Assembly (NCBI RefSeq): GCF_002814095.1
Contig: NZ_CP021918.1
Coordinates: 1 to 38,612, forward strand
DNA: 38,612 nucleotides
Reading direction: 5' to 3'
Source of the DNA: Sagittula sp. P11
GTDB lineage: Bacteria; Pseudomonadota; Alphaproteobacteria; Rhodobacterales; Rhodobacteraceae
Positions 1-38,612 of the stretch are shown here, in pieces (the stretch's first letter is position 1; every line of letters starts with the position of its first letter). The translations under genes and the position numbers were made by a program. The notes below the pieces were generated by a model. It was given only the letters and a program-made list of their open reading frames with translations. It did no database searches and was not told where the DNA came from.

Positions 1-530
1 TCCTCGCGCTGGCCCTCGCGGCCTGTGGCGGGACCGAACCGCGCTTCGACGCCGCGCCCGCCGCGCCCATGGAGAAGGTGTCCTCCCGCTATGCCCGGAT
101 CGAGGTGGCCACCGTCACCCTGCCGGTCTACGCGCAGGGCGAGGAGATCCACGTGCAGGACAAGGACGGCGCCATCGTGCCGCTCGGACCGCTCTGGACC
201 GACGAGCCGTCGCGCGCCGTGACGCTGCAGATCGCCCGCGATCTCGACGCGATCACCGGGCGGCTGGTGGCGGCCGAACCCTGGCCGTTCCGCGACTACC
301 CGGACGTGAAGGTGGATGTGCGGCTGCAGGACTTCTACGCCACCGCCCGCGGCACCTTCCGCATCGCCGGGATGGTCTATGTCGCGCCGGAAGAGGCCGG
401 CCCCGACCGTGCCAAGCGGTTCGAGATCGAGGCGGTGCTGCCCGGCGAGGGCCCGGCGGCGATCGCCGCCGCGCGTTCGGCGGCGGTGGCGCAGCTCTCG
501 GGCTTCATCGCGAAGAACGGGCTGCGCTGA
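1..530 (+). CDS. pqiC: PqiC-type lipoprotein, 3' part (gene crosses the window junction)
   Basis: This is the outer-membrane-directed lipoprotein of the PqiABC lipid-transport system (DUF330/ABC-transport auxiliary lipoprotein family), inferred to link the PqiB needle to the outer membrane. The frame is open from position 3 and reads LALALAAC, a lipobox with the acylated Cys encoded at 24-26. The mature domain (IEVATVTLPVY, then a Trp-containing stretch) fits the family. The first Met inside the window (69) lies after the lipobox, so it is not the true start. The start lies at 38588 at the other end of the window. Joining the ends gives a 184-residue protein, four bases after pqiB. Family call good; substrate unknown. 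Confidence 0.8.
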   Translation, partial: LALALAACGGTEPRFDAAPAAPMEKVSSRYARIEVATVTLPVYAQGEEIHVQDKDGAIVPLGPLWTDEPSRAVTLQIARDLDAITGRLVAAEPWPFRDYPDVKVDVRLQDFYATARGTFRIAGMVYVAPEEAGPDRAKRFEIEAVLPGEGPAAIAAARSAAVAQLSGFIAKNGLR

Positions 531-672: not shown

Positions 673-2799
673 TCAGCGCTGGTAGTACTTGCCGCCGTAG
701 TTCGAGTAGTTGGCGTAGCCGTAGCCGTAGCGCTTCATGCCTTCCGGGCTGATCTGGTTCAGCACGAGGCCGCTCACCGGCTTGCCGACGCTCTCGAATT
801 CGCGCAGCGCGGCCAGCACCTGCTCGGACTGGGTCTGGTCCCAGCGCACGACGAACAGCGTTGCATCGACGTTCTGCGCGATCAGGCGCGCATCCGGCAC
901 GATCAGCACCGGCGGCGTGTCGATGATGACGATGTCGTACATGTCGCGCAGGCGGCGCATCAGCATGCTGAACTGCTCGGTCGCGAAGACGTCGGCGGCG
1001 TTGCTCGGCCCCTTTTCCCCGAACAGGATGTCGGCGCCGGTCAGCTCGTCGTGCAGGATCACCTCCTCGGGCGTGGCGGCGCCGGAGAGCACCGACAGCA
1101 GGCCCTTGTCGCTGGAGACGGAGAGGTAGTCCTTGAAGACCCGGCGGCGCAGGTCGCCCTCGATCAGCAGCACGCGCTTGCCCATGGCCGCGTAGTTCTG
1201 CGTCAGCGCGAAGGCGACCGTGGTCTTGCCTTCGCCGGGCAGGGACGAACAGGTCATCAGCACCTTCGGCGGGTTGTCGATGTTGAACAGCATGACCGAG
1301 GTGCGCAGGTTGCGCACCGCCTCTGCCGGGGCGGAGGCCGGTTTCGTCTTCAGGTGCTCGATCAGCGGACGGCGCTTCTTGATCGGGAACATCGGGATCT
1401 GGCCGACCACCGTGTAGCCGGTCGTCGTCTCGAGATCCTGCGACGTGCGGAAGGCGCGGTCGCGCAGCTCGCGGAGCAGGATGTAGGCGCTGCCCAGGAG
1501 CAGGCCGATCATCGCCGCCATGGCGAGGATCAGCGGCTTGCGCGGGGAGGAGGGCTGGATCGGCACGACGGCGGGCGAGATGATCCGGCTGTCGGCCTGC
1601 TGGATGCCCTGCTGCGCCGAGGTCTCCTTCAGGCGGGTCAGGAAGTACTCGTAGAGCAGCCGGCTGGCCTCGGCCTCGCGGGTGAGCTGCTGGAGGGTGA
1701 TCAGGTCCTCGTTCTGGCGGGTGATCTGCTCCTCGCGGGAGGTCAGCGAGCGTTCCAGCAGCGCAAGCTGGTCCTGCTGCCGCTCCACGTCGGTGCGCGC
1801 CCTGACGAGGTTCTGGTTGAAGCGGTTCTCGAAGGTCTGCGCCGTGGCCTCGTCGTCGATGTTGTTCAGCAGGCGCTGAAGCTGCGGATCGCGCGAGGCC
1901 TCGACCTTCTGCTGCGGGGTGTCGGCGGCCTCCATCTCGGCCAGGCGGGCCTGCGCGGTCACGAGCGAGGATTCGGCGTCGAGGATCCGGTCGCGCAGGT
2001 CCTTCACCTGGATCTCGAGGCTGGAGAGCGCCTCCTGGCTGATCAGCGTGGTGGCGGCGCGGAAATCGGTGACCTTGGCCTCGGCGGCTTCCAGCGCCTG
2101 CTGCAGGCCGCTGACGCGCTCGGTCAGCCAGCTGGTGGCCTGCTCGGTGGCGGCGAACTTCACCTCGAGCTGGTTGAGGATGTAGGTGTCGACGATGGTG
2201 TTGGCGATCAGCGCGGACTTGCGCCGGTCGGTGGTCTCGACGGTGACCTGGAAGACCACGCTCGAGGGCACGTTGCGGATGCTCGTGGCGCCCAGCAGGC
2301 GGTTGATCGCCGCCTCGCGCTGACGCTCCTCCTCGGGGATCTCGGCCGGGGCGGAGGGACGGGGCAGGATGGCGTTGCGGATCTGCGTCCGGACCATGTC
2401 GATCCGGCCGGGGTCGCGCAGGGAGGGGTTGAACTCCGGATCGGTGGTCAGGTCGAGCTGGTCGACCACCTTGCCCAGCAGCACGCGGCTCTTGAGCACC
2501 TCGACCTCGGTGTTGACGACGGTGCTGTCGGACCCCAGCCCGCCGATCACGTTGTTCAGGTCGACGACCTGTTCCTCGCGGTTGTTCAGCATGACGACGG
2601 CGGTCGACTGGAACATTGGCGTGGCCGCGACATAGGCGTAGTAGCCGCCGATCAGCAGGGCCACGAAGACCACGAACCCGATCAGGATCTTGCCCCGCCA
2701 GACGGCGGACAGCAGCGCCAGCGGATCGATCTTGCTGGCCTGATCGGCCTTGGGAGAGGAGGGGATGGTCTGCGGACCGCTCTTCATATCGTTCAACAT
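673..2799 (-). CDS. Wzc/ExoP-like polysaccharide co-polymerase with BY-kinase domain
   Basis: Inner-membrane protein that sets polysaccharide chain length and couples assembly to export through autophosphorylation. It has 708 residues, the usual size for a fused Wzz-kinase. A first membrane segment lies near residues 38-58 (ILIGFVVFVALLIGG), a long coiled periplasmic region follows, and a second segment (LILAMAAMIGLLLGSAY) precedes the cytoplasmic kinase. Walker A is at about 522-527 (GEGKTT), Walker A' at 543-553 (VLLIEGDLRRR) and Walker B at 623 onward (IVIIDTPPV). The C-terminus carries a seven-Tyr cluster between 691 and 706, the expected autophosphorylation tail. The ATG at 2799 has a GGAG just upstream. 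It is last in the rml operon, 182 bases after rmlA. The matching phosphatase and Wza are not on this replicon. Confidence 0.9.
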   Translation of the reverse strand: MLNDMKSGPQTIPSSPKADQASKIDPLALLSAVWRGKILIGFVVFVALLIGGYYAYVAATPMFQSTAVVMLNNREEQVVDLNNVIGGLGSDSTVVNTEVEVLKSRVLLGKVVDQLDLTTDPEFNPSLRDPGRIDMVRTQIRNAILPRPSAPAEIPEEERQREAAINRLLGATSIRNVPSSVVFQVTVETTDRRKSALIANTIVDTYILNQLEVKFAATEQATSWLTERVSGLQQALEAAEAKVTDFRAATTLISQEALSSLEIQVKDLRDRILDAESSLVTAQARLAEMEAADTPQQKVEASRDPQLQRLLNNIDDEATAQTFENRFNQNLVRARTDVERQQDQLALLERSLTSREEQITRQNEDLITLQQLTREAEASRLLYEYFLTRLKETSAQQGIQQADSRIISPAVVPIQPSSPRKPLILAMAAMIGLLLGSAYILLRELRDRAFRTSQDLETTTGYTVVGQIPMFPIKKRRPLIEHLKTKPASAPAEAVRNLRTSVMLFNIDNPPKVLMTCSSLPGEGKTTVAFALTQNYAAMGKRVLLIEGDLRRRVFKDYLSVSSDKGLLSVLSGAATPEEVILHDELTGADILFGEKGPSNAADVFATEQFSMLMRRLRDMYDIVIIDTPPVLIVPDARLIAQNVDATLFVVRWDQTQSEQVLAALREFESVGKPVSGLVLNQISPEGMKRYGYGYANYSNYGGKYYQR

Positions 2800-2981: not shown

Positions 2982-3861
2982 TCAGGTTCCGGCGGGCAGC
3001 AGGGATTTCAGGTACTTGCCATACTCGGTCTTCTTGAAGGTCTCGGCGTGTTGCCGCAGCAGGTCGGCGTCGATCCAGCCCTTGCGGTAGGCGATCTCCT
3101 CCGGGCAGCCGATCTGCAGGCCCTGGCGCTGCGACATGGTGCGCACGAAGTTGCCCGCGTCCAGCAGGCTGGCGTGGGTTCCGGTGTCCAGCCAGGCAAA
3201 GCCGCGGCCCATGGTCTGCACGCTCAGCGACCCCTCGTCGAGGTAGGTCTGCAGGAGCGAGACGATCTCCAGTTCGCCGCGCGCCGAGGGCTTGACCGCC
3301 CGCGCCCGCGCCGGGGCCTCCGCGTCGAGGAAATAGAGTCCGGTCACCGCGAAGTTCGACGGCGGGACCTCCGGTTTCTCGATGATCTCCTGCGCGGTGC
3401 CGTCCGCGTCGAAGGCCACCACGCCGTAGCGTTCCGGGTCGGCCACCTGGTAGCCGAAGACCGTGCCGCCGGCGGGCTGGGCATCGGCGGCCATCAGCAT
3501 CTCGGGCAGGCCGTGGCCGAAGAAGATGTTGTCCCCCAGCACCATGGCCGAGGGCGCGCCGTCGAGGAAGTCCTCGGTCAGCAGGTAGGCCTGCGCCAGA
3601 CCGTCGGGGCTTTCCTGCACCACGTAGGTCAGCGACATGCCCCACTGGCTGCCGTCGCCCAGCAGGCGCCGGAACTGGTCCTGGTCGTGCGGGGTGGTGA
3701 TCAGCGCCACCTCGCGGATGCCCGAGAGCATCAGCACCGACAGCGGGTAGTAGATCATCGGCTTATCGTAGACCGGCATGGTTGTTTCGAGACGCCCATG
3801 GTCAGCGGGTAGAGCGGGTGCCCGACCCTCCGGCGAGGATGATGCCCTTGCGCGTGGTCAT
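2982..3861 (-). CDS. rmlA: Glucose-1-phosphate thymidylyltransferase (two apparent frameshifts)
   Basis: First enzyme of dTDP-L-rhamnose synthesis, joining dTTP and glucose-1-phosphate. The start is the ATG at 3861, overlapping the rmlD stop as ATGA. The N-terminal signature LAGGSGTR lies in that frame. The reading then shifts at about 3814 (one base missing in the CGCCTC context) and again at about 3781 (one base missing before ATGCCGGTC). The intact part from 3779 encodes 265 residues starting PVYDKPMIYYPLS and including the WLDTGTH region. Restoring the two bases gives 293 residues, the normal family length. Everything else is conserved, so I read this as a functional gene with sequence errors rather than a pseudogene. 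Confidence 0.88.
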
Positions 3862-4706
3862 GTCTGTTCTCCAAGGTCTTGCAGCACCTCGCCCAGGTCC
3901 CGGCGCCAGTCCGGCCGGTCGATCCCGAAGGTGGCGAGCGTCGCGCCAGTCGAGCCGCGAGTTGAGCGGCCGGCGGGCCGGTGTCGGGTAGTCGCCGGAC
4001 GGGATGCCCGTCACCGTGACCTGCCGCCCGGCCGCGACAAAGATCGCGCGGGCGAAGTCGGCCCAGCTTGCGTCCGGGCCGCCGGTGAAATGGTAGACGC
4101 CGGAGGTCCCGGCGTCGCGGGCCAGCACCGGCACGATGGCGAGGCAGGCCTCGGCGATCCGCGCCGCCGAGGTCGGGCCGCCGATCTGGTCGTCGACGAC
4201 GTTCAGCGCGTCGCGGGTCCCGGACAGGCGCAGCATGGTCTTCACGAAGTTGTTGCCGTGGGCGGAAAACACCCAAGAGGTGCGCAGCACCGCCCAGCGT
4301 CCGCCGGCGGCGCGCACCGCCTCCTCGCCCGCCAGCTTCGACCGGCCGTAGGCGTTCAGCGGCGCGGTGGGGGCGTCGGGCGCGCGGGGCGTGTCCCGCT
4401 GCCGTCGAAGACGTAATCGGTGGAGATCTGCACGAAGGGGATGTCGCGCGCGGCGCAGGCCTCTGCCATGGCGGCGGGGGCCTGCGCGTTGATCGTGGTG
4501 GCCAGCGCCTCGTCGTCCTCCGCCTTGTCGACGGCGGTGTAGGCGGCGGCGTTGATCACCGCCGAGGGCGCGTGCGCCGCGATGGCCGCCGCGGCAGGCG
4601 TCGGGGTCGGAGAGGTCGGCCTCGGCCCGCGACAGGAAGACCGCGTCCGGCGCCCGCCGCGCCAGTTCGATGGCGACCTGTCCCGAGGATCCGAAACACC
4701 AAGGGG

Positions 4707-4710
<4 letters not shown>
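3858..4710 (-). CDS. rmlD: dTDP-4-dehydrorhamnose reductase (three apparent frame shifts)
   Basis: Last step of dTDP-L-rhamnose synthesis, an NAD(P)H-dependent SDR-type reductase. The N-terminus has the FGSSGQ nucleotide-binding motif. The central part ([23 protein letters not shown]) is in another frame, and the C-terminal half ([11 protein letters not shown], the Tyr-x3-Lys site, then [10 protein letters not shown]) returns to the first. Frame changes lie near 4594 (one extra or two missing bases), 4388 (one C missing) and 3946 (one extra base or two missing). Repairing them gives about 283 residues, the family length. The gene overlaps rmlB and rmlA by ATGA at both ends, typical of a translationally coupled operon. 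Confidence 0.87.
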
Positions 4711-6328
<1,618 letters not shown>

Positions 6329-9270: not shown

Positions 9271-11303
9271 TCAGGTGGCGATCAGCCCGTGGCCGCGCAG
9301 CGCGGCGAGGATCGCGTTGATCTTCGACACCTCGTCGCCGCCGGCGCTGTCGGCGATGGCCGCCTGCTGCGTGCCGACCACCTTGGTGTTGCCGACCAGG
9401 TAGGCCCCGTCGTGCCGGATCGCGAATCGCGTGACCGCAGCGCCCGCGGCCTCGGAGACCCCCTCGACGAAGTTCTTGCCGTCGGTCGACGCCTTGCCGG
9501 TGCGGATCTGCAGCTCCGTCGAGGTGTTGCCGGAGGTGCGCGTCTGTTCGACGATGGCCACCGGGCGCTGGTAGCTGCCGCTCTGGATCAGCGCCGCCAC
9601 GTCGCCGACGCCCGAGCCGTAGCCCAGGCTGTAGAGCGCGTGCAGCGCCGGGCCCTTGTTGTCGCTGTCCTGTTCGAAGTAGGAGCGGCCCTCGGCGTAT
9701 TTCGGCTTGCCCCCGGCCACGACCCGGTGCGTCGCGTTCGGCGAGGGCACGCCCGTGGGGGCGCCCTGGTAGACCGCCCATTCCGCCGGGCCGAGCGTCA
9801 GCGGCTTGCCGGCGGTGCGGGTGTCGCGGATCGCCGGGTGAACGTAGCCGTCGTAGACGTTGCCGCTGATGATGTGCCCGCCGGCGAAGGTGTTGCTGCC
9901 GGTGATCTCGATCGGCGAGATGCCGTCGTTGTTGCGGAAGATGTTGCCCGCGATGTAGCACTCGCCGTTGATCAGGCGCAGGTAGGTGCTGCAGGTCGCG
10001 GCGGCCACGGGCCCGGAGTGGTTGGCCAGCCCGTTGCCGACGAAGACCGTGCTGTCGGACAGCTCGATGGCGGGCAGCGGCAGGGTGCCCTTGTGGTTGC
10101 TGATGGCGTGGAACTTGCTCTGGATGACGCTGTGGTGCAGGCCTTCCATCTTCATCATCGGGCCGTCGATGTCCTCCCAGCGGCACTGCAGGAACTGGTT
10201 GTAGTTGCTGTTCTTCGTGCTGGCGGTGCTGTTGCGGATGTTGACGCAGGCGGTGCCGTCCGGCACGCCGCCGCCGGTGAAGGTGACCTGCGTCCACTGG
10301 CAGTCCCAGGCGTTGGTCAGGTTGATGCAGGGCGTGTGGCCGCCGTTCATGCGGACGTTGGTCACCCGCCACTCGATCGCCTGGTGGCCGTGGATCAGGC
10401 CGTTCTCCGAGGGGTCTCGGCGATGGCGGCGTCGCGCTGCATGGAGAAGTTGCGCAGCTCGACGCCGATGCACTTGCCCGCGTCGGTGTTCAGCGGGAAG
10501 CCGGTGTAGAACAGCGGCTCCGTGCCGGTCGCGACGACCCAGGTCCCGTCGGCGGCGTTGAAGATCTCCTTGCCCGCGCCCTGCCCGATCACCGTGACCC
10601 CGCGCGGCAGCGTGGCGGTGGAGGAGACGCGGATGATCCCGCGCGGCAGCAGGACGGTGGGCGGGCCGCCGAGGTTGTTGCCTTCGACCATCTCGGCCAC
10701 CGCCGCCCACAGCCGGTCCCAGGCCTCGGTGTTGTCCGCCGTGCCCGAGGGCTTGACCCCGAAGGCCTCGGCGTTGATCACCCGCGCGCGGTAGGTCAGC
10801 TTCACGCCGCCCCGGGTCATCAGGTGGTAATTCTCCGAATCCTCCGGCATGCAGGTGAACAGGTGGTTGTCCTCGGCGACGCGCAGCACCTGCCCGACCT
10901 TGACCTGCTGGTACTCCGGATCGGCGCTGTACGAGAGGGTCCGGTCGTTCAGCAGCTCGTCGACGTCCGCAACGTCGAAGATGCTGCCCAGCGACACGTC
11001 GTCGGCCACCGCCACGTCGTTGATCGACAGCACCAGCGCATCGTTCCGGTCGCGGAACTCCACCCGGTAGCGGCCGTCGACCAGGTAGCACAGGGGGAAG
11101 CGGCCGGCGGGAGTCGCCATGACCGGGTTGGCGATCATGGTGGTCAGGTCCCGGTCCCGGTAGACCGGGGACAGCGTCACCGAGTTCTGTTCATAGACAT
11201 ACATCCGCCCGCCCGGCAGCAGGCCGTCCGGGTGCCCGGGAAATTGCTGGTTGTCGGCGAAGGCGGGCAGCTGTTCCACGTCCTTGGTGTTCAAGAGTCC
11301 CAT
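9271..11303 (-). CDS. Tailspike-like right-handed beta-helix protein, candidate polysaccharide lyase (one frameshift)
   Basis: About 677 residues once a single missing G/C in the run at 10411-10414 is restored. The N-terminal ~110 residues (YVYEQNSVTLSPVYRD, then NPVMATPAGRFP and VEFRDRNDALVLSI) resemble the particle-binding domain of phage tailspikes. Next comes VINAEAFGVKPSGTADNTEA, the start of a pectate_lyase_3 beta-helix, with VLLPRGIIRVSSTATLPRGVTVIG. The helix continues with short N/I/G-rich rungs (NIRNSTAS; GNIFRNNDG). The C-terminal ~60 residues are Ala-rich. No signal peptide is visible. ATG 11303 follows AGGGAG. It may depolymerise or edit the polysaccharide made by the neighbours, or be a captured phage depolymerase. 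Catalytic residues cannot be assigned by eye. Confidence 0.72.
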
Positions 11304-12695: not shown

Positions 12696-14021
12696 ATGCT
12701 GAAAGGCAGCGCGTTCATCCTGATCCTCAGCCTGCTGGGCGAGGGTCTCGGCCTGATCATGATCATGATCGTCGGCAACTACTATTCCGTGGCGGAGGCC
12801 GGCCTGCTGCTGACCCTGCAGAACAACCTCTTCCTGTTCGGCACGATCGGCAGCCTCGGCCTCGGCACGGGCTTCCTGCGCTTCGCGCCGCATTACCTCG
12901 AAAGCGGGCGGCTCGACACGGTGCGCGGGCTGCAGCGCTGGATCTACGGCGTGGCGCTGGCCGGGCTGGCGCTGACGGCGGTGGGGCACACGGCCTTCCT
13001 GCTCTGGTCCGAGGAAACGCGCGCCATGGGCACCGGGCTCGCCGTGGCGGCCTCCGTGGCGATCCTGTTCTGGGGGCTGGTGACGCTGGACCGGCAGCTC
13101 CTGCGCTCGCTGAAGCAGATCTTCTGGTCGGAATTCTCCTACCAGGTCATCCGCCCGGTGGGCGGCACGCTGATCCTCGCGGCGGCGCTGCTCTGGGGCG
13201 GCGGCACCGGCGCCATCGTGGCCGCCCTGCTCCTGCCGCTGGTCGGGGGCTTCTTCTACGACCTCTGGCGCATCTCCCGCCGGATCGGCGGGCTGGCGGG
13301 CCCGGCCGATTACGCGCCGCGCCGGGAATGGCAGGCCTCGGCGCCGCATTATGCCGTCATCAACCTCTCGCGGGTCGCGCTGCAGCGGCTCGACCTCCTG
13401 GTGGTCGCGGCCATGCTCGGGCTCGAGGCGGCGGCGATCTACGGGCTCGCGGCGCGGCTCGCCACGCTCTCCACGCTGGCGGTGGAGCCGATCCGCTCGA
13501 TGTTCCAGCCGCGCGCCAGCCTGCACCACAAGCAGGGCCGCACCGAGGAACTGCAGCGCGACGTGGTGCAGGGCACGCTCTGGATCGCCGTGGTCTCGCT
13601 GGTGGTGGCGGTGGTCTTCCTGACCAGCGCGCCGTTCTGGCTGCAGCTCTTCGGCGACGTCTCCGGCGGCCGGCAGAGCATCGTGCTGCTGTTCATCCTG
13701 CTGTTCGGCTATTTCGTCATGGCCAACAGCTCGGTGGCCTCCGCGCTCCTGCTCATGACGGGGAGCGAGCGTATCCAGGGCCGGGTCAACGCGGTGCTGA
13801 TCTTCCTGGTCTATCCGCCGGCGCTCTGGCTGGGGATCACCTGGTTCGGGCTTTACGGCGCCGCCGTCGCCACCGCCCTGGTCCGCACGGTCGGGGCCGT
13901 GGTGATGATCTGGCTGACGTGGCGCAGGACCGGGATCCTCGCCATCGCCAAACCGAGCTGGCGCAACCTCGTCACCGCCTTCGGGCCGCTGGTATCGCGC
14001 CTCGGGCGCCGGGGTCGCTGA
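12696..14021 (+). CDS. Wzx-type polysaccharide flippase (MOP superfamily)
   Basis: Inner-membrane lipid-linked oligosaccharide flippase of 441 residues with about 12 hydrophobic segments, the family's usual size. The N-terminus KGSAFILILSLLGEGLGLIM and the repeated Gly-rich segments (GTIGSLGLGTGFLRFAP) are typical. An ATG at 12664 overlaps the GT4 stop but runs to a TGA after 12 codons. Adding one base in the GGGGCCC region at about 12684-12690 would fuse it in frame and add 11 residues. The true start may therefore be 12664, with a sequencing deletion, as in rmlABD. It would export the repeat unit begun by the sugar transferase at 24020-24703. Confidence 0.88.
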   Translation: MLKGSAFILILSLLGEGLGLIMIMIVGNYYSVAEAGLLLTLQNNLFLFGTIGSLGLGTGFLRFAPHYLESGRLDTVRGLQRWIYGVALAGLALTAVGHTAFLLWSEETRAMGTGLAVAASVAILFWGLVTLDRQLLRSLKQIFWSEFSYQVIRPVGGTLILAAALLWGGGTGAIVAALLLPLVGGFFYDLWRISRRIGGLAGPADYAPRREWQASAPHYAVINLSRVALQRLDLLVVAAMLGLEAAAIYGLAARLATLSTLAVEPIRSMFQPRASLHHKQGRTEELQRDVVQGTLWIAVVSLVVAVVFLTSAPFWLQLFGDVSGGRQSIVLLFILLFGYFVMANSSVASALLLMTGSERIQGRVNAVLIFLVYPPALWLGITWFGLYGAAVATALVRTVGAVVMIWLTWRRTGILAIAKPSWRNLVTAFGPLVSRLGRRGR

Positions 14022-14024
14022 ATC

Positions 14025-14093
14025 GGCCACAGGCGTGTGGCCCACTTATATCGCGCCAAAGGCGCGTGGGCCGCTTAATCGCGCCTCAGGCGC
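14025..14093. terminator. Hairpin-rich bidirectional terminator region
   Basis: Between convergent genes. A GGCCAC/GTGGCC stem lies at 14025-14042. Overlapping it, GGCCCAC (14039-14045) pairs with GTGGGCC (14066-14072) around an inner CGCGCC-AAA-GGCGCG stem (14052-14066). GCGCCT-C-AGGCGC follows at 14081-14093. Mutually exclusive folds are possible. TTATAT lies inside the loop region. Best read as a two-way transcript end. Confidence 0.5.
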
Positions 14094-14937
14094 CGGGGGC
14101 GTGCGCCTCGATGTCCCGCACCCAGCCGTCCAGCGGGCGGTCGATCATCTTCTCCAGCCGGCGGATGTTGTCGATGTAGCGCGCGATCTCCTCCGGCGGC
14201 AGCTCCTCGTAATGCGCGGTGTTGTCCACCGTGATCGGCTTGTAGAGCACCTTCTGCACCATTGCGCTGTTCTTCAGCGCGCCCAGAAGGTTGTGCAGCC
14301 CCGCCGCGCGCAGCGCCGAGGCGACCTTCTTGCCCAGCTTGTTCACGCCGGGGGCCCGCGCCTTCGACGCGGCGCGCACGCGCTCGCCGATCCGGTCGTA
14401 TTCGAAGTAGGGCACGCCGAGGAAGTCCGAGATCCGCCGCGCCAGCGCCTCGGGGTCCTCCAGAAGGTCGTCGTAGAGGAAGACCAGCACCTGTTCGCGC
14501 GGGAAATGCGCGTAGACGTGTTCGAGGTCGTCGGCATAGCGCCCCTCGGAGAACAGGCCCGGGTCCTTCGCGCCGTGCTCCCGGATCGAGGGCTCCACCA
14601 GCCCGTGCCGCGCGGCGTAGAGATAGGTGGAGATCACCCGGTCCACCGGCTGGCGCAGCGAGCAGATGAGCTTTGCGTCGGGATAGTCGGCGGCGATCCG
14701 CGAGATGGCCTCGCGGTTGTGCAGGTAGTCGTGGCAGATCTCGCCGGCCACCTGCCCGGGTTTCGCCGGGGCGAAGAAGCCTTCGTACCAGGCGGTGCCC
14801 TTGTGGTAGTAATCCTTGAAGAAATAGATGTCCTTGGCGGTGGGCACGAAGATGTCCGGGTGGCGGACGAAGTAGTTGTGCAGCCACGAGGAGCCGGACT
14901 TGCTGGCGCCGAGGAAGATGAAGTCGGGTTTCGTCAT
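14086..14937 (-). CDS. Sulfotransferase (third copy)
   Basis: PAPS-dependent sulfotransferase of 283 residues (Sulfotransfer_1/3 type), close to family length. PDFIFLGASKSGSSWLHNYF at residues 4-23 holds the 5'-phosphosulfate loop (SKSGSSWL). ICSLRQPVDRVISTYLYA holds the 3'-phosphate-binding Arg and Ser. VLVFLYDDLLEDPEALARRI near the middle and FLGVPYFEYD are conserved family features. No signal peptide, so cytoplasmic. The start at 14937 overlaps the stop of the GT2 gene as ATGA. That close coupling suggests the sulfate is put on the sugar added by, or next to, that transferase. Confidence 0.9.
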   Translation of the reverse strand: MTKPDFIFLGASKSGSSWLHNYFVRHPDIFVPTAKDIYFFKDYYHKGTAWYEGFFAPAKPGQVAGEICHDYLHNREAISRIAADYPDAKLICSLRQPVDRVISTYLYAARHGLVEPSIREHGAKDPGLFSEGRYADDLEHVYAHFPREQVLVFLYDDLLEDPEALARRISDFLGVPYFEYDRIGERVRAASKARAPGVNKLGKKVASALRAAGLHNLLGALKNSAMVQKVLYKPITVDNTAHYEELPPEEIARYIDNIRRLEKMIDRPLDGWVRDIEAHAPGA

Positions 14938-24956: not shown

Positions 24957-25481
24957 TCAACCCTGGGGTGTGCGGCCTTCGAACTGGTCCATGAGGATTT
25001 CCAGCATGTCGTAATAGGCGCGCCGGTCCGCCTTGCACATCGCCCGGAACCGGTCGAGCACGTGGCGCGGACCTTTCAGATTGAGCTGCCCGTCGGTCGC
25101 CGCTTCACGTGACGGGAAATGCGAAACCGCGTCGATGGCCCGCCGCGTCTCGGCGGCGGAGGGTACGTGACGCGCCGCGGCCGGGGCCTCTGCCGCACGC
25201 GATTTGCGGCGCGGTGCCTCGGCCGGCACGGTTTCCGTCACCGCCTCCCCCTGCCCTTCCGGGTCCTGCATGTCCGCCTGTCCGGCGGCCCCGGGGTTTT
25301 CCCCGGCGCGGCTGCCGCCACTCTCCCCAGACTTGCGGCTTGCGCCGCTTTCCCCGGTCCTGCGGCTTGCGCCGCTTTCCTCTGTCTTGCGGCTCCCGCC
25401 GCGGGGCGCAAAATCGTCCAGATCGTCGAAGCTGGGCATCGCCAGCGCCGTGCGGGTGCCCTCGGCCGGTCCGCCGCTCAT
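24957..25481 (-). CDS. Small DNA-binding partition partner, ParG/RHH-like
   Basis: 174 residues, coupled to parA by ATGA (25478-25481). Residues 30-56 hold three 9-residue repeats of the type SRxTGESGA, followed by a degenerate fourth, all low-complexity and probably disordered. The last ~45 residues (DGQLNLKGPRHVLDRF, then a long helix ending LEILMDQFEG) look like a ribbon-helix-helix unit: one strand, then helices. In type Ib systems such a protein binds the centromere upstream of parA and stimulates the ParA ATPase. No ParB/Spo0J motif is seen. The family call rests on position and fold pattern. Confidence 0.65.
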   Translation of the reverse strand: MSGGPAEGTRTALAMPSFDDLDDFAPRGGSRKTEESGASRRTGESGASRKSGESGGSRAGENPGAAGQADMQDPEGQGEAVTETVPAEAPRRKSRAAEAPAAARHVPSAAETRRAIDAVSHFPSREAATDGQLNLKGPRHVLDRFRAMCKADRRAYYDMLEILMDQFEGRTPQG

Positions 25482-26173
25482 GCTGCCCTGCCCTTCTCGG
25501 CGGCGTCGCGGATCGCGCGCAGCCGGGAGATGACCTCGGTGCGGAAGGCCTCGATGTTCTCCAGCGCCTTGTCGAGCCCGTTGACATATTTCGGCGACAT
25601 GCCCGCCACCGTGCCGCCCATCGAGAACATCGCCGCGAAGGCGTCGCGCTCGTGGATCTCGGTCTCGAAGCAGTCGATGTGGGCGTTGCCGCGGAACTGC
25701 GCCGCGATGTGCCGCGCGGTGCGCGACTTCACCGCCGCCCGGCTCTGGGTGAACAGCACCGAGTACGGGATCTTGCGCCGCGTCGCCTTCATGTCGCGGT
25801 GGATCTCCTGGATCACGTCGAGCGCGGCCAGCGCGTCCTGCTGCTGCTCCTTCATCGGGATCACCACGAGGTCCGACTGCGAGATCGCATAGCTCATCAG
25901 CCGCGAGGCGGTGCCCTCGAGGTCGATGATGACGAAGGGATCGCGGGCGGCGGCCTCCTCGATCTCGTCGAGGATGGTCTTCTCGCTGTCGTTGGTGACG
26001 ACGCTCAGCGTGTCGGGGCGGCCGGGCTTCTCGGCCCATGTGGTGATCGGGTGCCGGGGGTCGGCGTCGATCAGGGTGGTGGGGCGATGGGCGGCAAGGG
26101 CCTGGGCCAGCAGAAGCGCGCTTGTCGTCTTCCCGCTGCCGCCCTTGGAATTGGCGAATGCGATCACCGGCAT
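25478..26173 (-). CDS. parA: ParA-type partition ATPase
   Basis: Walker-type ATPase of 231 residues that moves plasmid copies apart. VIAFANSKGGSGKTTSALLL is the deviant Walker A motif with the signature Lys. Walker A' follows as TLIDADPRHP and Walker B as FVIIDLEGTAS. There is no N-terminal HTH, so it is a short type Ib ParA. Two in-frame ATGs exist: 26191 and 26173. I prefer 26173 because AGGA sits 8-11 bases before it, inside the longer frame. It is followed by the RHH-like partner and preceded by repeats that fit a centromere. ParA-like proteins act on the nucleoid surface. Confidence 0.93.
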   Translation of the reverse strand: MPVIAFANSKGGSGKTTSALLLAQALAAHRPTTLIDADPRHPITTWAEKPGRPDTLSVVTNDSEKTILDEIEEAAARDPFVIIDLEGTASRLMSYAISQSDLVVIPMKEQQQDALAALDVIQEIHRDMKATRRKIPYSVLFTQSRAAVKSRTARHIAAQFRGNAHIDCFETEIHERDAFAAMFSMGGTVAGMSPKYVNGLDKALENIEAFRTEVISRLRAIRDAAEKGRAA

Positions 26174-26286
26174 GGGTGGGTGTCCTGTCATGTCTCGGGC
26201 CGCATGGTGCGCGGACCCGGTGTTGCTGCTCTCCCGCCATGGCGGGCCTTTGTCTCCGCGTTGCCGCGGGTGGCCTCTCCGGGCCC

Positions 26287-26295: not shown

Positions 26296-26345
26296 CCTTA
26301 GCATAGGTTAGGCTACTCTACCAAGGGGAACCTTGGGCTATCTTC

Positions 26346-26611
26346 GGGTACCTCTTGTTAGCATACCGTACCATAGCGTTTGATACCCAAGGGAAGTCCG
26401 GGGTAGCCATAGGTACCCTGTTGCGGGAGAGATGCCCGGGAGGGCGGCGCGGCGTTTGCCCGGTACCCTATGGTACTGCAGGATAGCCCGCATCCCGATC
26501 CCCCGTGTTGCCGGTGTCTGGCGGCAGGACGGACGGCGCGCGGCAGCCGGTCCATGCTGGGCCCGCGCGGCAAGACAGATGGGTACCCTGTGGTAGCCTA
26601 CCGTACCACGG
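26346..26611. repeat. Candidate parS: 31-bp repeats and TACC/GGTA palindromes
   Basis: Two 31-bp copies (26346-26376 and 26581-26611) agree at 24 positions and share GGGTACC and TACCGTACCA. Shorter copies of GGTACCCT lie at 26412 and 26462; the latter is in GGTACCCTATGGTA, an imperfect palindrome. TTAGCATA also occurs at 26298 and 26358. Placement directly upstream of parA fits the centromere of a type Ib partition system. Confidence 0.6.
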
Positions 26612-32657: not shown

Positions 32658-33686
32658 TCAGGGCCGTCCGCGCCGCTGGAACCACTTCCTGCAGAAGCCG
32701 AGGAAGGCCATTTCCGGGTTCTTCGGCACTTCGCTGGCCCAGTCGCGCCATTCCGCCTCGATCTGGCGCACGTCCCAGCCAGGCGCGGCGGAGCGGGCCA
32801 TCTCGTAGACCTCCGGATCGAGCGGCGGGATGTTGACCTCGCCGCCGCCTTCCGGCCCCACCGTCCCGCGCGAGGTCGCCACGAGGTGGTCGCGCTGCTC
32901 GTCGATGCGGATGCGGTAATCGGGCATGTGGTTGTATTCGGCGTCTTCCTTGGCGATCGCCGCCACCAGGCGGCGGAATTCGCGCAGGGTCGAGCCGGAG
33001 CCGCACTTCTTCTGCAGGACCTCCATGGAGACCCGCCATTCCTTCTGCCGGCCGCAGTGCTTGCGGGCCAGTTCGTAGACCCGGCGCTCCAGCGGCTTGC
33101 GCAACCGGAAGTACTCACGACTCAGGGTCAGCACCTCCTGTGCGCGAATCGCATTGAACACCCAGTCGCTGAGCTTGACCTCCACCTCCTGCATCCGGCC
33201 GTCGCGGGTCTCGCGGACGATGCGGGCGCGTTCGATCAGGCCGAAGGTCTCGAAGATCTCCTGCCCGCCGGTGTTGATGTTGGTCGAGATCCGCGTGCCC
33301 GCCAGCCGCTCCATCGCCGCCTTCAGCAGCGCGTAGCCCCGGCCGGTGGTCATCCGGTTGGTGGCCTTCAGCAGGTCGGCGGCCTGGAAGCGGATCACCT
33401 GCTGGGGCTCCTTGCCATCGTTCATCCCCTTGATGAGCGAGGAGATGCAGTAGATCAGCACGTCGCGGTCGTGCACCGTGGCCAGCCCGTCGGTCGAGGG
33501 CTTGATCTCGATGGTGATGTTGTTGTGCTCGTAGCGCCGGGGGCGGGTGTCGGGTTTCGTCGACAGCGAGAAGATCGGATGCTCCATCGAGCCCACGTCG
33601 CCCTTCGGCGCCGCGTCGAGGATGTCGCAGACGAAGAAGTCGCCCTGCGGGTGCCGGTCGGGCAGCAGAGGGGAATGGTCGGCCAT
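32658..33686 (-). CDS. repA: Plasmid replication initiator RepA
   Basis: Replication initiator of 342 residues from the RepA (RPA) family common on roseobacter plasmids. The N-terminus (GDFFVCDILDAAPKGD, then MEHPIFSLSTKPDTR) and RYEHNNITIEIKPSTDGLATVHDRDVL... are family blocks. The middle (DLLKATNRMTTGRGYALLKAA; LARKHCGRQKEWRVSME) should form winged-helix DNA-binding domains. It binds the iterons just upstream and opens the origin. ATG 33686 is preceded by AAGGAGA, a strong site. Iterons between 33764 and 34000 overlap the promoter region, so self-repression by RepA is likely. Confidence 0.92.
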   Translation of the reverse strand: MADHSPLLPDRHPQGDFFVCDILDAAPKGDVGSMEHPIFSLSTKPDTRPRRYEHNNITIEIKPSTDGLATVHDRDVLIYCISSLIKGMNDGKEPQQVIRFQAADLLKATNRMTTGRGYALLKAAMERLAGTRISTNINTGGQEIFETFGLIERARIVRETRDGRMQEVEVKLSDWVFNAIRAQEVLTLSREYFRLRKPLERRVYELARKHCGRQKEWRVSMEVLQKKCGSGSTLREFRRLVAAIAKEDAEYNHMPDYRIRIDEQRDHLVATSRGTVGPEGGGEVNIPPLDPEVYEMARSAAPGWDVRQIEAEWRDWASEVPKNPEMAFLGFCRKWFQRRGRP

Positions 33687-33763
33687 GGCGGGTCTCCTTG
33701 TCCTGCGGCCCCGGCGGGGCAGCCTGTCCTGCGCGCCCCGTCCGGCGGGCGGCCCGGCCCGAA

Positions 33764-33860
33764 CGACACTTCACACACGGTGCAGGATAAAACGACACTT
33801 CACACACGCCAACCCCAAAACGACACTTCGCCCACGGTGCTACGACACTTCACACACGCT
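33764..33860. repeat. Iteron group A, four copies
   Basis: CGACACTTCACACACG at 33764, 33793 and 33843, and the variant CGACACTTCGCCCACG at 33821. Start-to-start spacing is 29, 28 and 22 bases. Direct repeats upstream of the initiator gene are the expected RepA binding sites; the copies nearest repA may also control its promoter. Confidence 0.85.
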
Positions 33861-33934
33861 CCGGCCCGGAAAATCCGAATCGTGACAGGCGTTTGGGCCC
33901 CTGTTTTCATGGCGGAAATCAACCCCGATTCGGG

Positions 33935-34000
33935 AATCACCACTTTGCACACGGTGAATCACCACTCTGCACACGCAGAATCACCACTTTACACACGGGG
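33935..34000. repeat. Iteron group B, three copies at exact 22-base spacing
   Basis: AATCACCACTTTGCACACGG at 33935, AATCACCACTCTGCACACGC at 33957 and AATCACCACTTTACACACGG at 33979: a contiguous 22-base array, two helical turns per unit. They share CACTTNNCACACG-like bases with group A but differ at the 5' end. Confidence 0.87.
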
Positions 34001-34052
34001 GGTCCCGGCAAGCCGCTGGAATCCCCGGGAAAAACGGCGTCCGGAAGGGGCG

Positions 34053-34081
34053 TAACACTATATATAACACATATCTAACAC
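34053..34081. other. AT-rich block, candidate DNA unwinding element
   Basis: 28 bases almost free of G, with TAACAC at 34053, 34065 and 34076 around TATATA. It stands out sharply in a GC-rich replicon and lies 53 bases from the last iteron, as expected for origin opening. TATATA may also serve as a -10 element for the pqi operon. Confidence 0.6.
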
Positions 34082-34172
34082 CCCCTGGCCGCGTTGCCCG
34101 TGCCGCGCCGCCGCACTAGGATGCAGGGAAGGGCGCCCGAAGCGGCGGGCCCCGCCTTGGAAGGGACCGGGA

Positions 34173-34865
34173 ATGACGGCTCAGACGGATCGCACGGATG
34201 CCGGGAAGGGGCTGGACGGGACGGACCCGGCCGCGCTGATCGGCTGCCCGAACTGCGACGAGGTCTACGTGGCGCGGACCCCGCCCGCGGGGCGCCGCGC
34301 CGTCTGCGACCGCTGCGGCACGGTGCTGATCTCCAGCCGCGAGAACGCCGGGATCCCGATCCTCGCCCTGTCGCTGGCGGTGCTGATCCTGGTGCTGGCC
34401 GCCGCCTTTCACCCCTTCCTGTCGATCAACGCCGCGGGGCTGGGGAACCGGGTGTCGCTGCTGGACGTGGCCACCAGCTTCCGCTCCGGCGTGCTGGTGC
34501 TGGTCTCGGTGGCGACGGTGATGCTGATCGTGGCGCTTCCGGCGCTGCGCGTGGGGCTGCTGATCTACGTCATCGCCCCGCTCGAGATGGGGCTCAGGCC
34601 CGCGCGCCACGCCCGCGGCGCCTTTCGCGCCGCGCAGGAGCTGAAGCCATGGTCGATGACGGAGGTCTTCTCCATCGGCTGCGCGGTGGCGCTGGTGAAG
34701 GTCTCCGACCTCGCCCGGCTGGAATTCGGCCCGGCGTTCTGGATGTTCGTCGCGCTCTCGGTGATCGTGGTGGTCTCGGACCGGTTCATGTGCAGCTGGT
34801 CGATCTGGCAGGCCATCGACGAGGCCGAGGGTGACGCAACGGCATCTGCCCGCGAACCGGTCTGA
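34173..34865 (+). CDS. pqiA: PqiA-family membrane protein, first half-size copy
   Basis: Inner-membrane part of the PqiABC lipid-trafficking system. 230 residues, about half of E. coli PqiA, corresponding to one repeat. An N-terminal zinc ribbon (CPNCDEVYVA ... CDRCGTVL) precedes four helices (ILALSLAVLILVLAAAFHPF; VLVLVSVATVMLIVALPALR; FSIGCAVALVKV; FWMFVALSVIVVV). The motifs HPFLSI and LKPWSMTEVFSIGCAVALVKVSDLA are diagnostic. ATG 34173 follows AAGGGA. It is first in an operon with a second pqiA, then pqiB and pqiC. PqiA supports transport by the PqiB tunnel; lipid direction is unknown. Confidence 0.9.
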   Translation: MTAQTDRTDAGKGLDGTDPAALIGCPNCDEVYVARTPPAGRRAVCDRCGTVLISSRENAGIPILALSLAVLILVLAAAFHPFLSINAAGLGNRVSLLDVATSFRSGVLVLVSVATVMLIVALPALRVGLLIYVIAPLEMGLRPARHARGAFRAAQELKPWSMTEVFSIGCAVALVKVSDLARLEFGPAFWMFVALSVIVVVSDRFMCSWSIWQAIDEAEGDATASAREPV

Positions 34866-35158
34866 GTGGCCTTCGCGGGCGCTTTGATCCCCACCGCGGG
34901 GGAGGGTCGTATTGCCGATGCCCCGGTGCCGGACTATCCTGTGGTGCCCGGGACGCTGCGGCATGCCCGGGGGAAAACGGGCCGGACAGACCGGGCACGA
35001 AAGACGGGGCGGGACGGCACCGGGTCCGGGGGCCTCGGAGCGGGCCGGTCACCCGGCCCCGCAACCTGGGCCCGCCATTTGGGGATGAGAGCAGCCATGC
35101 AGGACCGCGAAGGCACACCGTCCGGACAGGACGGACGCGGCGGACGCGCAGGCGCGCG
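34866..35158 (+). other. 293-base gap between the two pqiA genes
   Basis: An open frame runs through the gap and ends in TGA overlapping the next ATG (35159-35162), but the peptide is Gly/Arg-rich and has no recognisable domain. A GCCCG/CGGGC inverted repeat sits near 34966-34983. An in-frame ATG at 35097 would give only 21 residues. Most likely an untranslated spacer; a coupling leader peptide cannot be excluded. Confidence 0.4.
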
Positions 35159-35803
35159 ATGAGCACCGCCCGCGAGATGGGGCTGGTCACCTGTACCGCC
35201 TGCGCCCGCGTCTGGCCCGCCGGCACGCCGGAGTGCGGCCGCTGCGGTCACCGCCTGCAGTCGCGCCACGAGGGCAGCCTGCAGATGGTCTGGGCGTTCT
35301 GGGTCACCGGCCTGCTGTGCTACATCCCCGCCAACCTCTACCCGATGCTCGTGACCTCGACCCTCGTCAGCACCGAGTCCAACACCATCGTCGGCGGCGC
35401 GGTCGAGATCGCCCGCCACGGCGAGATCGCCATCGCCGCCATCGTGCTGATTGCCTCGGTCGTCATCCCGGTCGCCAAGTTCATCGCCATCGCCTATCTC
35501 GCGCTGTCGGTGCAGCGCGGCGCGGTGCAGGGCGCGCACGGCAAGATGCACCTCTACGAGATCGTCGAGTTCATCGGCCGCTGGTCGATGATCGACGTCT
35601 TCGTGGTCGCGATCCTCAGTGCATTGGTGCAACTGTCCGTCGTGGCGTCGATTCATCCCGGTCCGGCGGCATTGACCTTTGCGCTCTCCGTCATATTCAC
35701 CATGCTGTCTGCCAGGTCGTTCGACACGCGCCTGATCTGGGATACCCACGTCCCGCACGGCCAGACGGCCGCCACGCTGCCCCCGAGCCACGGATCCGAA
35801 TGA
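35159..35803 (+). CDS. pqiA: PqiA-family membrane protein, second half-size copy
   Basis: 214 residues. A zinc ribbon (CTACARVW ... CGRCGHRL) is followed by helices with the PqiA signature YIPANLYPMLVTST, then EIAIAAIVLIASVVIPVAKFIAIAYL and HGKMHLYEIVEFIGRWSMIDVFVVAIL. With the first copy it equals the two halves of a full-length PqiA, so the pair probably forms one functional unit from two chains. The stop overlaps the pqiB start as ATGA. Confidence 0.92.
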   Translation: MSTAREMGLVTCTACARVWPAGTPECGRCGHRLQSRHEGSLQMVWAFWVTGLLCYIPANLYPMLVTSTLVSTESNTIVGGAVEIARHGEIAIAAIVLIASVVIPVAKFIAIAYLALSVQRGAVQGAHGKMHLYEIVEFIGRWSMIDVFVVAILSALVQLSVVASIHPGPAALTFALSVIFTMLSARSFDTRLIWDTHVPHGQTAATLPPSHGSE

Positions 35804-38583
35804 CCGATCAGTCCTCCCAGACCCGCGACGTGCCGCTTTCGAAGCCGTCCCGCCGCCCCACCAGCCTGTCGCTGATCTGGCTGATCCCGGTGATCGCCAT
35901 CCTCGCCGCGCTCGGCGTGGCCTGGCAGAACTGGAACGACCGCGGCCCGCTGATCGAGGTCGCCTTCGACCAGGCCGCCGGGGTCAGCCCGCACGAGACC
36001 GAGCTGCGCTACCGCGACATCGCCGTGGGCGTGGTGGAAGGCGTGCACTTCTCCGCCGAACTGGACCGCGTGGTCACGGAGATCCGGCTGGACAAGACCA
36101 TCGCGCCATACGTCGACGCCGACTCCAGCTTCTGGATCGTCCGCCCGGAGGTGACCGCGCAGGGCGTCACCGGCCTCGATACCGTGCTGTCGGGCGTCTA
36201 CATCGCCGGCGCGTGGGACGGCGAGCCGGGCACGCCCGAGGACCGCTTCGTCGGTGTCAACGATGCGCCGATGCTCGCGCTCGGCGAGGAAGGCGTGACC
36301 TTCACCCTCCGCTCCGAGAACGGGCTGCCTACCGACAACACCCCGATCCTCTACCGCGGCGTGCAGGTCGGCCGGATGGGCCGCACCGAGGTCTCCGACG
36401 ACGGGCTGACCGTGACCGCGCAGGCGGTGGTGCTGGAACCCTACACCCGGCTCGTGACCTCCTCGACCCGGTTCTGGGACATCTCCGGCTTCAGCTTCTC
36501 GATCAACGCGCAGGGCGCCAGCCTCGACTTCTCGTCGCTGGCCTCGCTGATCTCCGGCGGCGTCACCTTCGAGACGCTGGCCTCCGGCGGCACGCCGCTG
36601 CGGGACGGGGTGACCTTCACCCTGCATCCCGACGAGGAGACCGCCCGCGAGGACTTCTTCCTCGAGGGCGAGGGCGGCTCGATCACCATGATGATGATCT
36701 TCGAGGAGAACCTCGCAGGCCTCAGCGCGGGCGCGCCGGTGACGCTGGGCGGGTTGCGCATCGGCGAGGTGGAGTCGATCTCCGGCCTCGTGGACGCGGA
36801 ACGCTTCGGCGACCCGCAGGTGCGACTGGCCACCACCATCCGGATCAACCCGGGCCGCATCGGGCTCGAGGAAGGGGTGAGCGAGGAGGGCTTCCTCGAC
36901 TACCTCGAAACCCGCGTGCAGGAGGGCCTGCGCGGCCGCCTGACCAACGCCTCGCTGCTGACCGGCGGGCTGAAGATCGACCTCGTCGACCTGGCCGAGG
37001 TCGCCCCGGCGGAGCTCGACCGCGACGCCACGCCCTATCCGCTGCTGCCCACCGCGCCCTCGGACGTGGCCAACATCGCGGCGACGGCGCAGGGCCTGCT
37101 GGCCCGGGTCGACGCGCTGCCGGTCGAGGAGGTCATGCAGGAGGCCATCGGCCTGATGGGCGACCTGCGCGGCGTCGTGGGATCGGAAGAGGTGCAGCAG
37201 GTGCCGGAATCGGTGCTGGCGACGCTGGAGGCGGTGCGTGCCTTCGCCGCGAGCGAGGAAGTCGCCGCGCTGCCCGAACAGATCGGAGAGCTGGCAGGCG
37301 GGCTGACGGAGGCCTCGGCCACGCTGAACGGCCTTCTGGGCGAGATCCGCGACGAGCAGGTGGTGGCGGCGGTCTCCGAGCTCATCGCCTCGCTGGACGA
37401 GACGGCGGCGACCCTGCCCGACCTTGCCGGGCAGGCGGGCGCTGTGCTCGCCAAGGCCGAGGGCCTGCCGCTGGACGAGCTTTCGGCGCAGCTTTCCACC
37501 CTTCTGGGCAATGCCGACACGCTCATCACCGACGAGAACCTGACCGCGATCCCCGCCGACCTGCGGGCGACGCTGGACGCGGTGCGCGAGATCGCCACCA
37601 GCGAGGAGATCGCCGCGCTGCCCGCGCAGGTGGGTGAGCTGGCGGGCGGGCTGACCGATGCCTCCGACAAGCTGAACGCGCTCCTGGGCGACGTGCAGGA
37701 CCAGGCGGTTGTGGCGGCGGTCTCCGAACTCATCGCTTCGCTGGACGCCACGGCCGAGACCCTGCCGGCGCTGGCCGACCAGGCGGGCGCGGTGCTGTCG
37801 AAGGCCGAGAACCTGCCGCTCGAGGACATCTCGGCCCGGGTGACGACGCTGCTGGACGACGCCGACGCGATCCTGGCCGACCCGGACCTGAAGGCGCTGC
37901 CCGCCGATGTGCGCGCCACGCTCGACGGGCTGCGGCAGGTCGTGACGGCCGAGGAATTCGCCGCGCTGCCCGCGCAGGTGGGCGAACTGGCATCCGGGCT
38001 GACCGACGCCTCCGACAAGCTCAACGCGCTTCTGGAGGAGGCCCAGCAGGAGCGTATCCTCGCCTCCGTCTCGGAGCTGGTCGACAACCTCGGGACCACC
38101 GCCGACAAGCTGCCGGGCATCGCCGACCAGGCCAGCGCCGTGCTCTCGGACGCCGAGCAGCTCTCGCTCGACGAACTGGCCGAGCAGGCCCGCGCGCTCC
38201 TCGAGAGCGTCGACGCGCTGGTCGACCAGCCCAGCACCCGCGAACTGCCCGCGCAGGTGAACGGCACGCTGGCCGAACTGCGCCTCGCGCTCGAGGAGCT
38301 GCGGCAGGGCGGGGTGGTGACCAACGCCAACGCCACGCTGGCCGCGGCCCGCCGCGCCGCCGAGGCGATCTCGGACGCCAGCCGCTCGCTGCCGGCGCTG
38401 GCCGACCGGCTGACCGTGGTCGCCAACCAGGCCGGGGTGACGATCTCCGACTACGGGCGCGGCTCCGACTTCGGCCGCGAGATGTCTTCCGCCCTGCGCC
38501 AGATCGAGGAGGCCGCCTCGTCGATCGACCGGCTGGCAAAGCAGATCGCGCGCAATCCCAATTCCCTGATCACCGGACGATGA
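35800..38583 (+). CDS. pqiB: PqiB-family MCE protein with extended repeat tail
   Basis: Periplasmic lipid-tunnel protein anchored by one N-terminal helix (SLIWLIPVIAILAALGVAW). Three MCE domains follow (near GPLIEVAFDQAAGVSPHETEL; GVTFTLRSENGLPTDNTPIL; EENLAGLSAGAPVTLGGLRIG). The protein has 927 residues, far longer than E. coli PqiB (about 546). The extra length lies in the tail, which has 116-residue repeats: LPxQxGELAxGLT recurs at codons 37270, 37618 and 37966, and a partial copy at 38245. They are rich in Ala, Leu, Glu and Asp and should form long helices, lengthening the needle that reaches the outer membrane. Start at 35800 by ATGA overlap; stop 4 bases before pqiC. Confidence 0.93.
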   Translation: MTDQSSQTRDVPLSKPSRRPTSLSLIWLIPVIAILAALGVAWQNWNDRGPLIEVAFDQAAGVSPHETELRYRDIAVGVVEGVHFSAELDRVVTEIRLDKTIAPYVDADSSFWIVRPEVTAQGVTGLDTVLSGVYIAGAWDGEPGTPEDRFVGVNDAPMLALGEEGVTFTLRSENGLPTDNTPILYRGVQVGRMGRTEVSDDGLTVTAQAVVLEPYTRLVTSSTRFWDISGFSFSINAQGASLDFSSLASLISGGVTFETLASGGTPLRDGVTFTLHPDEETAREDFFLEGEGGSITMMMIFEENLAGLSAGAPVTLGGLRIGEVESISGLVDAERFGDPQVRLATTIRINPGRIGLEEGVSEEGFLDYLETRVQEGLRGRLTNASLLTGGLKIDLVDLAEVAPAELDRDATPYPLLPTAPSDVANIAATAQGLLARVDALPVEEVMQEAIGLMGDLRGVVGSEEVQQVPESVLATLEAVRAFAASEEVAALPEQIGELAGGLTEASATLNGLLGEIRDEQVVAAVSELIASLDETAATLPDLAGQAGAVLAKAEGLPLDELSAQLSTLLGNADTLITDENLTAIPADLRATLDAVREIATSEEIAALPAQVGELAGGLTDASDKLNALLGDVQDQAVVAAVSELIASLDATAETLPALADQAGAVLSKAENLPLEDISARVTTLLDDADAILADPDLKALPADVRATLDGLRQVVTAEEFAALPAQVGELASGLTDASDKLNALLEEAQQERILASVSELVDNLGTTADKLPGIADQASAVLSDAEQLSLDELAEQARALLESVDALVDQPSTRELPAQVNGTLAELRLALEELRQGGVVTNANATLAAARRAAEAISDASRSLPALADRLTVVANQAGVTISDYGRGSDFGREMSSALRQIEEAASSIDRLAKQIARNPNSLITGR
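37140..38270 (+). repeat. 348-base (116-residue) tandem repeats in pqiB
   Basis: Anchor codons CTGCCC-CAG-GAGCTGGC at 37270, 37618 and 37966 are exactly 348 bases apart. The next copy at 38245 is shortened to 279. DNA similarity between copies is high (GTGGCGGCGGTCTCCGA near 37370 and 37720), so unequal crossing-over could change the copy number. Confidence 0.8.
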
Positions 38584-38587
38584 CGCC

Positions 38588-38612
38588 ATGACAAAGCTGC
38601 CCCTCGTGACCG
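38588..38612 (+). CDS. pqiC: PqiC-type lipoprotein, 5' part (continues at position 1)
   Basis: ATG 38588 reads MTKLPLVT and runs off the end with one base of a codon left. Joined to TC at positions 1-2 this base makes a Val codon, and the frame continues into LALALAACGG of the 1-530 part. The result is a complete lipoprotein signal peptide. It follows pqiB by four bases. Confidence 0.85.

Follow-up and report, generated by a model that had tools for sequence, protein, structure and literature searches.

Organization of the pqi locus at the ends of the contig

The window, by which we mean the whole stretch of 38,612 nucleotides that was analyzed, corresponds to the entire contig C6 (1-38612) of a seven-contig genome (5,576,178 nucleotides over all seven contigs). 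One gene is shared between its two ends. The last 25 bases (38588..38612, forward strand) contain codons 1-8 of pqiC and the first base of codon 9, and the first 530 bases (1..530, forward strand) contain the remainder of codon 9 through the stop. When the ends are fused, these 25 + 530 bases form a pqiC of 555 nt, i.e., 184 codons and a stop. The ends do not overlap and no bases are duplicated at the join. The start codon of pqiC (ATG at 38588) follows the stop codon of pqiB (TGA at 38581-38583) with a 4-nt spacing, the junction codon (G + TC) encodes Val9, and the joined protein presents the lipobox LAAC, ending at Cys17. As is characteristic of PqiABC systems, a PqiC-type auxiliary lipoprotein with a lipobox is encoded immediately 3' of pqiB. 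These results agree with the first-pass annotation, which had placed the beginning of pqiC in the last 25 bases right after pqiB and its completion in the first 530, with an in-frame junction codon completing a lipoprotein signal peptide.

The 175-aa part of PqiC translated from base 3 matches the lipoprotein family PF03886 (ABC_trans_aux) above the Pfam cut-off (4.5e-23). The joined protein gave no match against NCBIfam at E up to 0.001 and no match against PDB sequences with phmmer at E up to 1. Approximately 2.5 imperfect tandem copies of a 41-nt unit (506-608) start in the final bases of pqiC.

Upstream of pqiC, pqiB (35800..38583, forward strand) encodes a protein of 927 aa with a long, repeat-bearing C-terminal tail. 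MlaD is matched in three stretches, giving this protein the three MCE domains of a PqiB, and its score against the model NF008070 is 370.6 bits, below the cut-off of 525. A search of plasmid records with blastn identified 35 records matching the pqi region, two of which cover at least 80% of it: Sagittula sp. MA-2 p1 (NZ_CP126146.1, 72,609 bp) and S. stellata E-37 unnamed4 (NZ_CP155733.1, 84,064 bp), both complete circular records. The first half of pqiA (34173..34865, forward strand, 230 aa) matches PF04403 and is 98.7% identical to the MA-2 half. The second (35159..35803, forward strand) encodes 214 aa, which align with the C-terminal half of two PqiA models at scores under their cut-offs and are 100% identical to the MA-2 protein. 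This division of PqiA over two half-length genes (34173-35803) is likewise present in MA-2, in E-37 and in four of six other plasmids. In the other two, one half-length pqiA appears in the listed stretch, in which the record begins or genes may be missing from the table.

The operon has the order pqiA-pqiB-pqiC found in E. coli, where PqiB is described as a syringe-like hexamer of ~230 A, proposed to span the periplasm, and PqiC as an outer-membrane lipoprotein (PMC10897342). In contrast to the E. coli system, PqiA is here encoded by two genes and PqiB is a 927-aa protein with a repetitive tail. By analogy, PqiABC would work as a lipid conduit from the inner to the outer membrane, with PqiC as its outer-membrane lipoprotein.

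The PqiB tail

Three tandem units of 116 aa (348 nt) are present in the PqiB tail (37264..38307, forward strand; residues 489-836). PqiB is 927 aa long in the window and in E-37 and 811 aa long in MA-2, a difference of exactly one 116-aa tandem unit. In six further plasmids the protein measures 683-698 aa (five plasmids) or 819 aa (one). The E. coli protein has about 546 aa.

We then considered the tail across the family. Among the 149 genomes that were drawn, 56 presented a match, our own included. One of the other 55 had split matches and was left out and one runs off its contig, leaving 53 genomes with measured tails. The lengths of these tails after position 420 cluster in steps of ~100 residues: 159 residues (1 genome), 180-189 (5), 252-282 (23), 359-391 (12), 475-521 (6) and 554-682 (6), and the two largest groups are further subdivided in steps of 7. 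As a single period, 102 fits best; its score was reached by none of 5,000 jittered sets, an analysis in which genomes are treated as independent and their kinship is ignored. In a limited search of the literature on PqiB needle length and tandem repeats, none of the titles and abstract openings listed mentions a stepwise tail, and passages of PMC5561183 contain nothing on it.

Replication, partition and transfer genes

The gene repA (32658..33686, reverse strand) encodes an RPA-type replication initiator (PF10134, E 1e-84), the only such match in the genome. Upstream of it lie seven iteron-like repeats of ~22 nt in a 4+3 layout (33762..34001, forward strand; the seven pattern matches fall at 33767-34001), followed by an AT-rich stretch at about 34053-34090. 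The contig therefore has the initiator and the adjoining iteron array of a RepA-type (RPA, PF10134) plasmid, and RepA is among the Rhodobacterales plasmid types listed in PMC9025767. RepA would replicate the plasmid from the iteron-like repeats. MA-2 presents seven matches to the iteron pattern, also in a 4+3 layout and with nearly identical spacing, and the pattern was found at 25 of 80 RepA loci (the best 80 of 139 relatives). The pqi genes adjoin the iteron-like repeats in the window and in both Sagittula plasmids. At the same 80 loci, again the best 80 of 139 relatives, no pqi gene was found at E up to 1e-8 in the sequence available, and hence no general linkage of repA and pqi in roseobacters. 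Many of these loci are short or are cut off where their contig stops; the set includes a contig of Sagittula salina, 6.2 kb long, on which repA and parA are present. The neighborhood of rep and pqi genes thus rests on the two Sagittula plasmids.

A ParA-family ATPase is encoded at 25478..26191 (reverse strand); it is named ParA in both relatives and is 98.7% identical to the MA-2 ParA. This protein matches VirC1 (PF07015) above the Pfam cut-off and the NCBIfam model ParA_partition below cut-off, so that its role in partition is putative. VirC1 serves transfer rather than partition in known systems; here the VirC1 match occurs on a plasmid without a match to the relaxase families PF03432 or PF03389. 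The small gene after parA (24957..25490, reverse strand) has a weak ribbon-helix-helix match (RHH_10, below cut-off), and the repeats upstream of parA (26326..26608) constitute a candidate centromere by their position. The ATPase and its small neighbor would segregate the plasmid.

A profile search of the contigs of the genome detected no match to PF03432, PF03389 or PF03135 on C6. Matches to the relaxase family PF03432 and to the VirB4-type family PF03135 were found on C3 and C4, and PF03389 was not matched anywhere in the genome. Judged on these three transfer-gene families, the plasmid is apparently not self-transmissible.

Polysaccharide cargo

The first gene beyond pqiC encodes a Wzc-like polysaccharide tyrosine autokinase (673..2799, reverse strand). 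It is followed by a region with rmlA, rmlD, rmlB and rmlC (2997..6325, reverse strand). All four rmlABCD genes are recognizable and rmlC occupies one frame, but rmlA, rmlB and rmlD are each spread over at least two reading frames, with frame changes at about 3.8-5.6 kb. The pieces of these split genes are 42-94% identical to relatives, and ten backbone proteins that were compared each align in one frame. The frame changes may reflect decay or local sequence error, which are indistinguishable here; their number at 3.8-5.6 kb makes the base accuracy locally doubtful, and sequence error is perhaps the source of the splits. The RmlD encoded here is the only strong RmlD match of the genome. A roseobacter "biofilm plasmid" with a rhamnose operon has reportedly been described by Michael in 2016.

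Further cargo comprises glycosyltransferases, sulfotransferases, a sugar transferase and a flippase-like protein, the last below Pfam cut-offs. One gene (9271-11303) presents a weak pectate-lyase-like match in its first part and an apparent frame change near 10.4 kb. In addition, ~3.8 imperfect tandem copies of a 28-nt unit (13994-14098) extend over the ends at which the flippase-like gene and the sulfotransferase gene face each other.

The first-pass annotation had proposed that absences from the window are meaningful. This holds for the three transfer-gene families. It does not extend to the intactness of genes, because decay and sequence error are indistinguishable for the split rml genes.

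Open frames across the join are expected by chance

The same annotation had argued that a join in frame is unlikely by chance. We evaluated this by rejoining the DNA (~69% GC) at random 2,000 times, taking 1,500 nt from either side and measuring stop-to-stop frames in all six frames. In 1,955 cases the join was spanned by a frame open for 190 codons or more, 190 being the length of pqiC's own frame measured in this way. An open frame across the join was rejected as evidence of circularity on this basis: because the DNA is so GC-rich, a spanning frame carries little weight by itself, and it is homology that carries the case instead. The GC3 phase across the C6 join is also uninformative, as only 25 nt of pqiC precede it.

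The other contigs of the assembly gave varied results. C2 presents a terminal redundancy of 541 nt at 99.8%, like a circle left untrimmed. C4 and C5 apparently close: their joined ends are crossed by an open frame whose GC3 phase is coding-like. No overlap or seamless gene was seen by eye, from translations, at the ends of C1, C3 and C7; those of C1 may miss a join by one or two bases. Within this assembly, clean closure does not seem to come as a matter of course.

Continuity of the join with closed Sagittula plasmids

In both MA-2 p1 and E-37 unnamed4, pqiC is an uninterrupted gene of 555 nt located 4 nt after pqiB. The joined pqiC agrees with that of MA-2 at 535 of 555 nt and with that of E-37 at 508 of 555 nt (182 and 173 of 184 aa, respectively), and over its first 60 nt the agreement is 60/60 with MA-2 and 58/60 with E-37. 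Using a 6-kb joined piece, the alignment to E-37 runs through the join over 3,525 nt without a gap (93.1% identity; 3,000 nt on the left and 525 nt on the right). The alignment to MA-2 covers 1,586 nt through the join at 97.0% identity with one gap opening, and both alignments stop no more than 10 nt from where pqiC ends. In the window, MA-2 and E-37 alike, the join is flanked by pqiAB on one side and by rml on the other. An ungapped alignment of 3,525 nt across the join cannot reasonably be attributed to chance. Finally, a tblastn search with the joined 184-aa PqiC matched 16 records of the plasmid collection, 11 of which were covered over at least 80%, and in both Sagittula plasmids residues 1-184 aligned in one piece, as had been predicted of full-length proteins for a genuine join.

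Circular replicons were reported for both strains, in the case of E-37 from a hybrid ONT/Illumina assembly (PMC11556119). By comparison with the relatives, no base is missing at the C6 join: missing or duplicated bases were looked for and none was found, the length being identical to that of both relatives. These observations bear on the possibility that C6 is only part of a larger replicon and that an insertion between its two ends was lost. Related plasmids are indeed bigger (72.6 and 84.1 kb) and other contigs of the assembly did not visibly close. Most inserted elements, however, leave a short target duplication, and the joined pqiC has exactly the length found in the relatives, without such a duplication, an argument that holds for elements that leave duplications. 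We regard a lost insertion as highly improbable.

The likeness to MA-2 p1 extends well beyond the join. RepA is 97.4% identical, ParA 98.7%, the pqiA halves 98.7% and 100%, and the joined PqiC shares 182 of 184 aa; the gene order repA-pqiA-pqiA-pqiB-pqiC, then rml, is the same and the iteron layout matches. Identities to MA-2 proteins of 82-100% were found for repA, both pqiA halves, pqiB, pqiC, parA, an epimerase, a dihydrolipoyl dehydrogenase-like protein and the sugar transferase, and of 70% for the small gene after parA. However, MA-2 p1 is nearly twice as long as the window and carries other polysaccharide cargo, and its rml proteins are 43-72% identical to those of the window (gapped alignments). 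E-37 unnamed4 resembles the window in its RepA (95.9%), its PqiC (173 of 184 aa), a PqiB that is likewise 927 aa long and four iteron-pattern matches adjoining pqiA in the stretch that was scanned. It differs in its size of 84 kb, in a YjbH-domain gene that separates pqiA from repA and in being typed as mobilizable with a MOBP relaxase, whereas the window has no match to PF03432 or PF03389.

A very probable complete circular plasmid, opened inside pqiC

Our results indicate that the window is almost certainly one complete circular RepA-type (RPA) plasmid of 38,612 bp from a marine roseobacter; judging by the closest plasmids, this is probably a Sagittula or a close neighbor of that genus. Circularity is supported by two closed plasmids in which the sequence runs on across the join. 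The earlier proposal of a closed circle and whole plasmid is upheld by this exact continuity, by the identity of the window with an entire contig and by the presence of the initiator, the iteron-like repeats and the ParA-family gene. The break that the assembler introduced would lie at an arbitrary position within pqiC, and it is for this reason that the gene looks split although it would be whole in the cell.

The join alone cannot separate a monomeric circle from a head-to-tail array, in which case the 38.6 kb would be a single repeat of a tandem multimer or tandem-integrated element, with a real join but a free circle of another size than 38.6 kb. The presence of RepA, iteron-like repeats and a ParA-family gene, and the fact that the two relatives are free circular plasmids, stand against such an array. 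So do the ends of the window, which outside C6 match only 51 bases (first 600 bases of the window) and 34 bases (last 500 bases) of C1. We consider an array of either kind very unlikely. Linear genomes that are circularly permuted, for example those of phages, likewise assemble as circles, and a recombinase of the phage-integrase family (PF00589) encoded in the window speaks for this reading. No phage structural protein was named in Pfam scans of the window proteins examined, however, and the relatives are plasmid records, making a permuted linear molecule the most improbable of the readings considered.

That a gene should be divided by the opening of a complete plasmid is an ordinary fact, useful rather than unusual, and it suggests that circularity in GC-rich DNA should be tested by ungapped homology to closed relatives and not by an open frame over the ends. 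Being a whole replicon, the window can be taken to show the full gene content of a plasmid, with one RepA replicon, a pqi operon and polysaccharide cargo, and without the three transfer-gene families. The only PqiB-type protein of the genome is encoded on this plasmid (one match at E up to 1e-30). We therefore raise, as a tentative and rather doubtful suggestion, that the plasmid may carry an envelope function not readily dispensable to its host, despite a second PqiC-family match on the host chromosome, and that the length of the PqiB conduit may be adjusted stepwise, through gain or loss of coiled-coil modules of ~93-123 residues and by single heptads.
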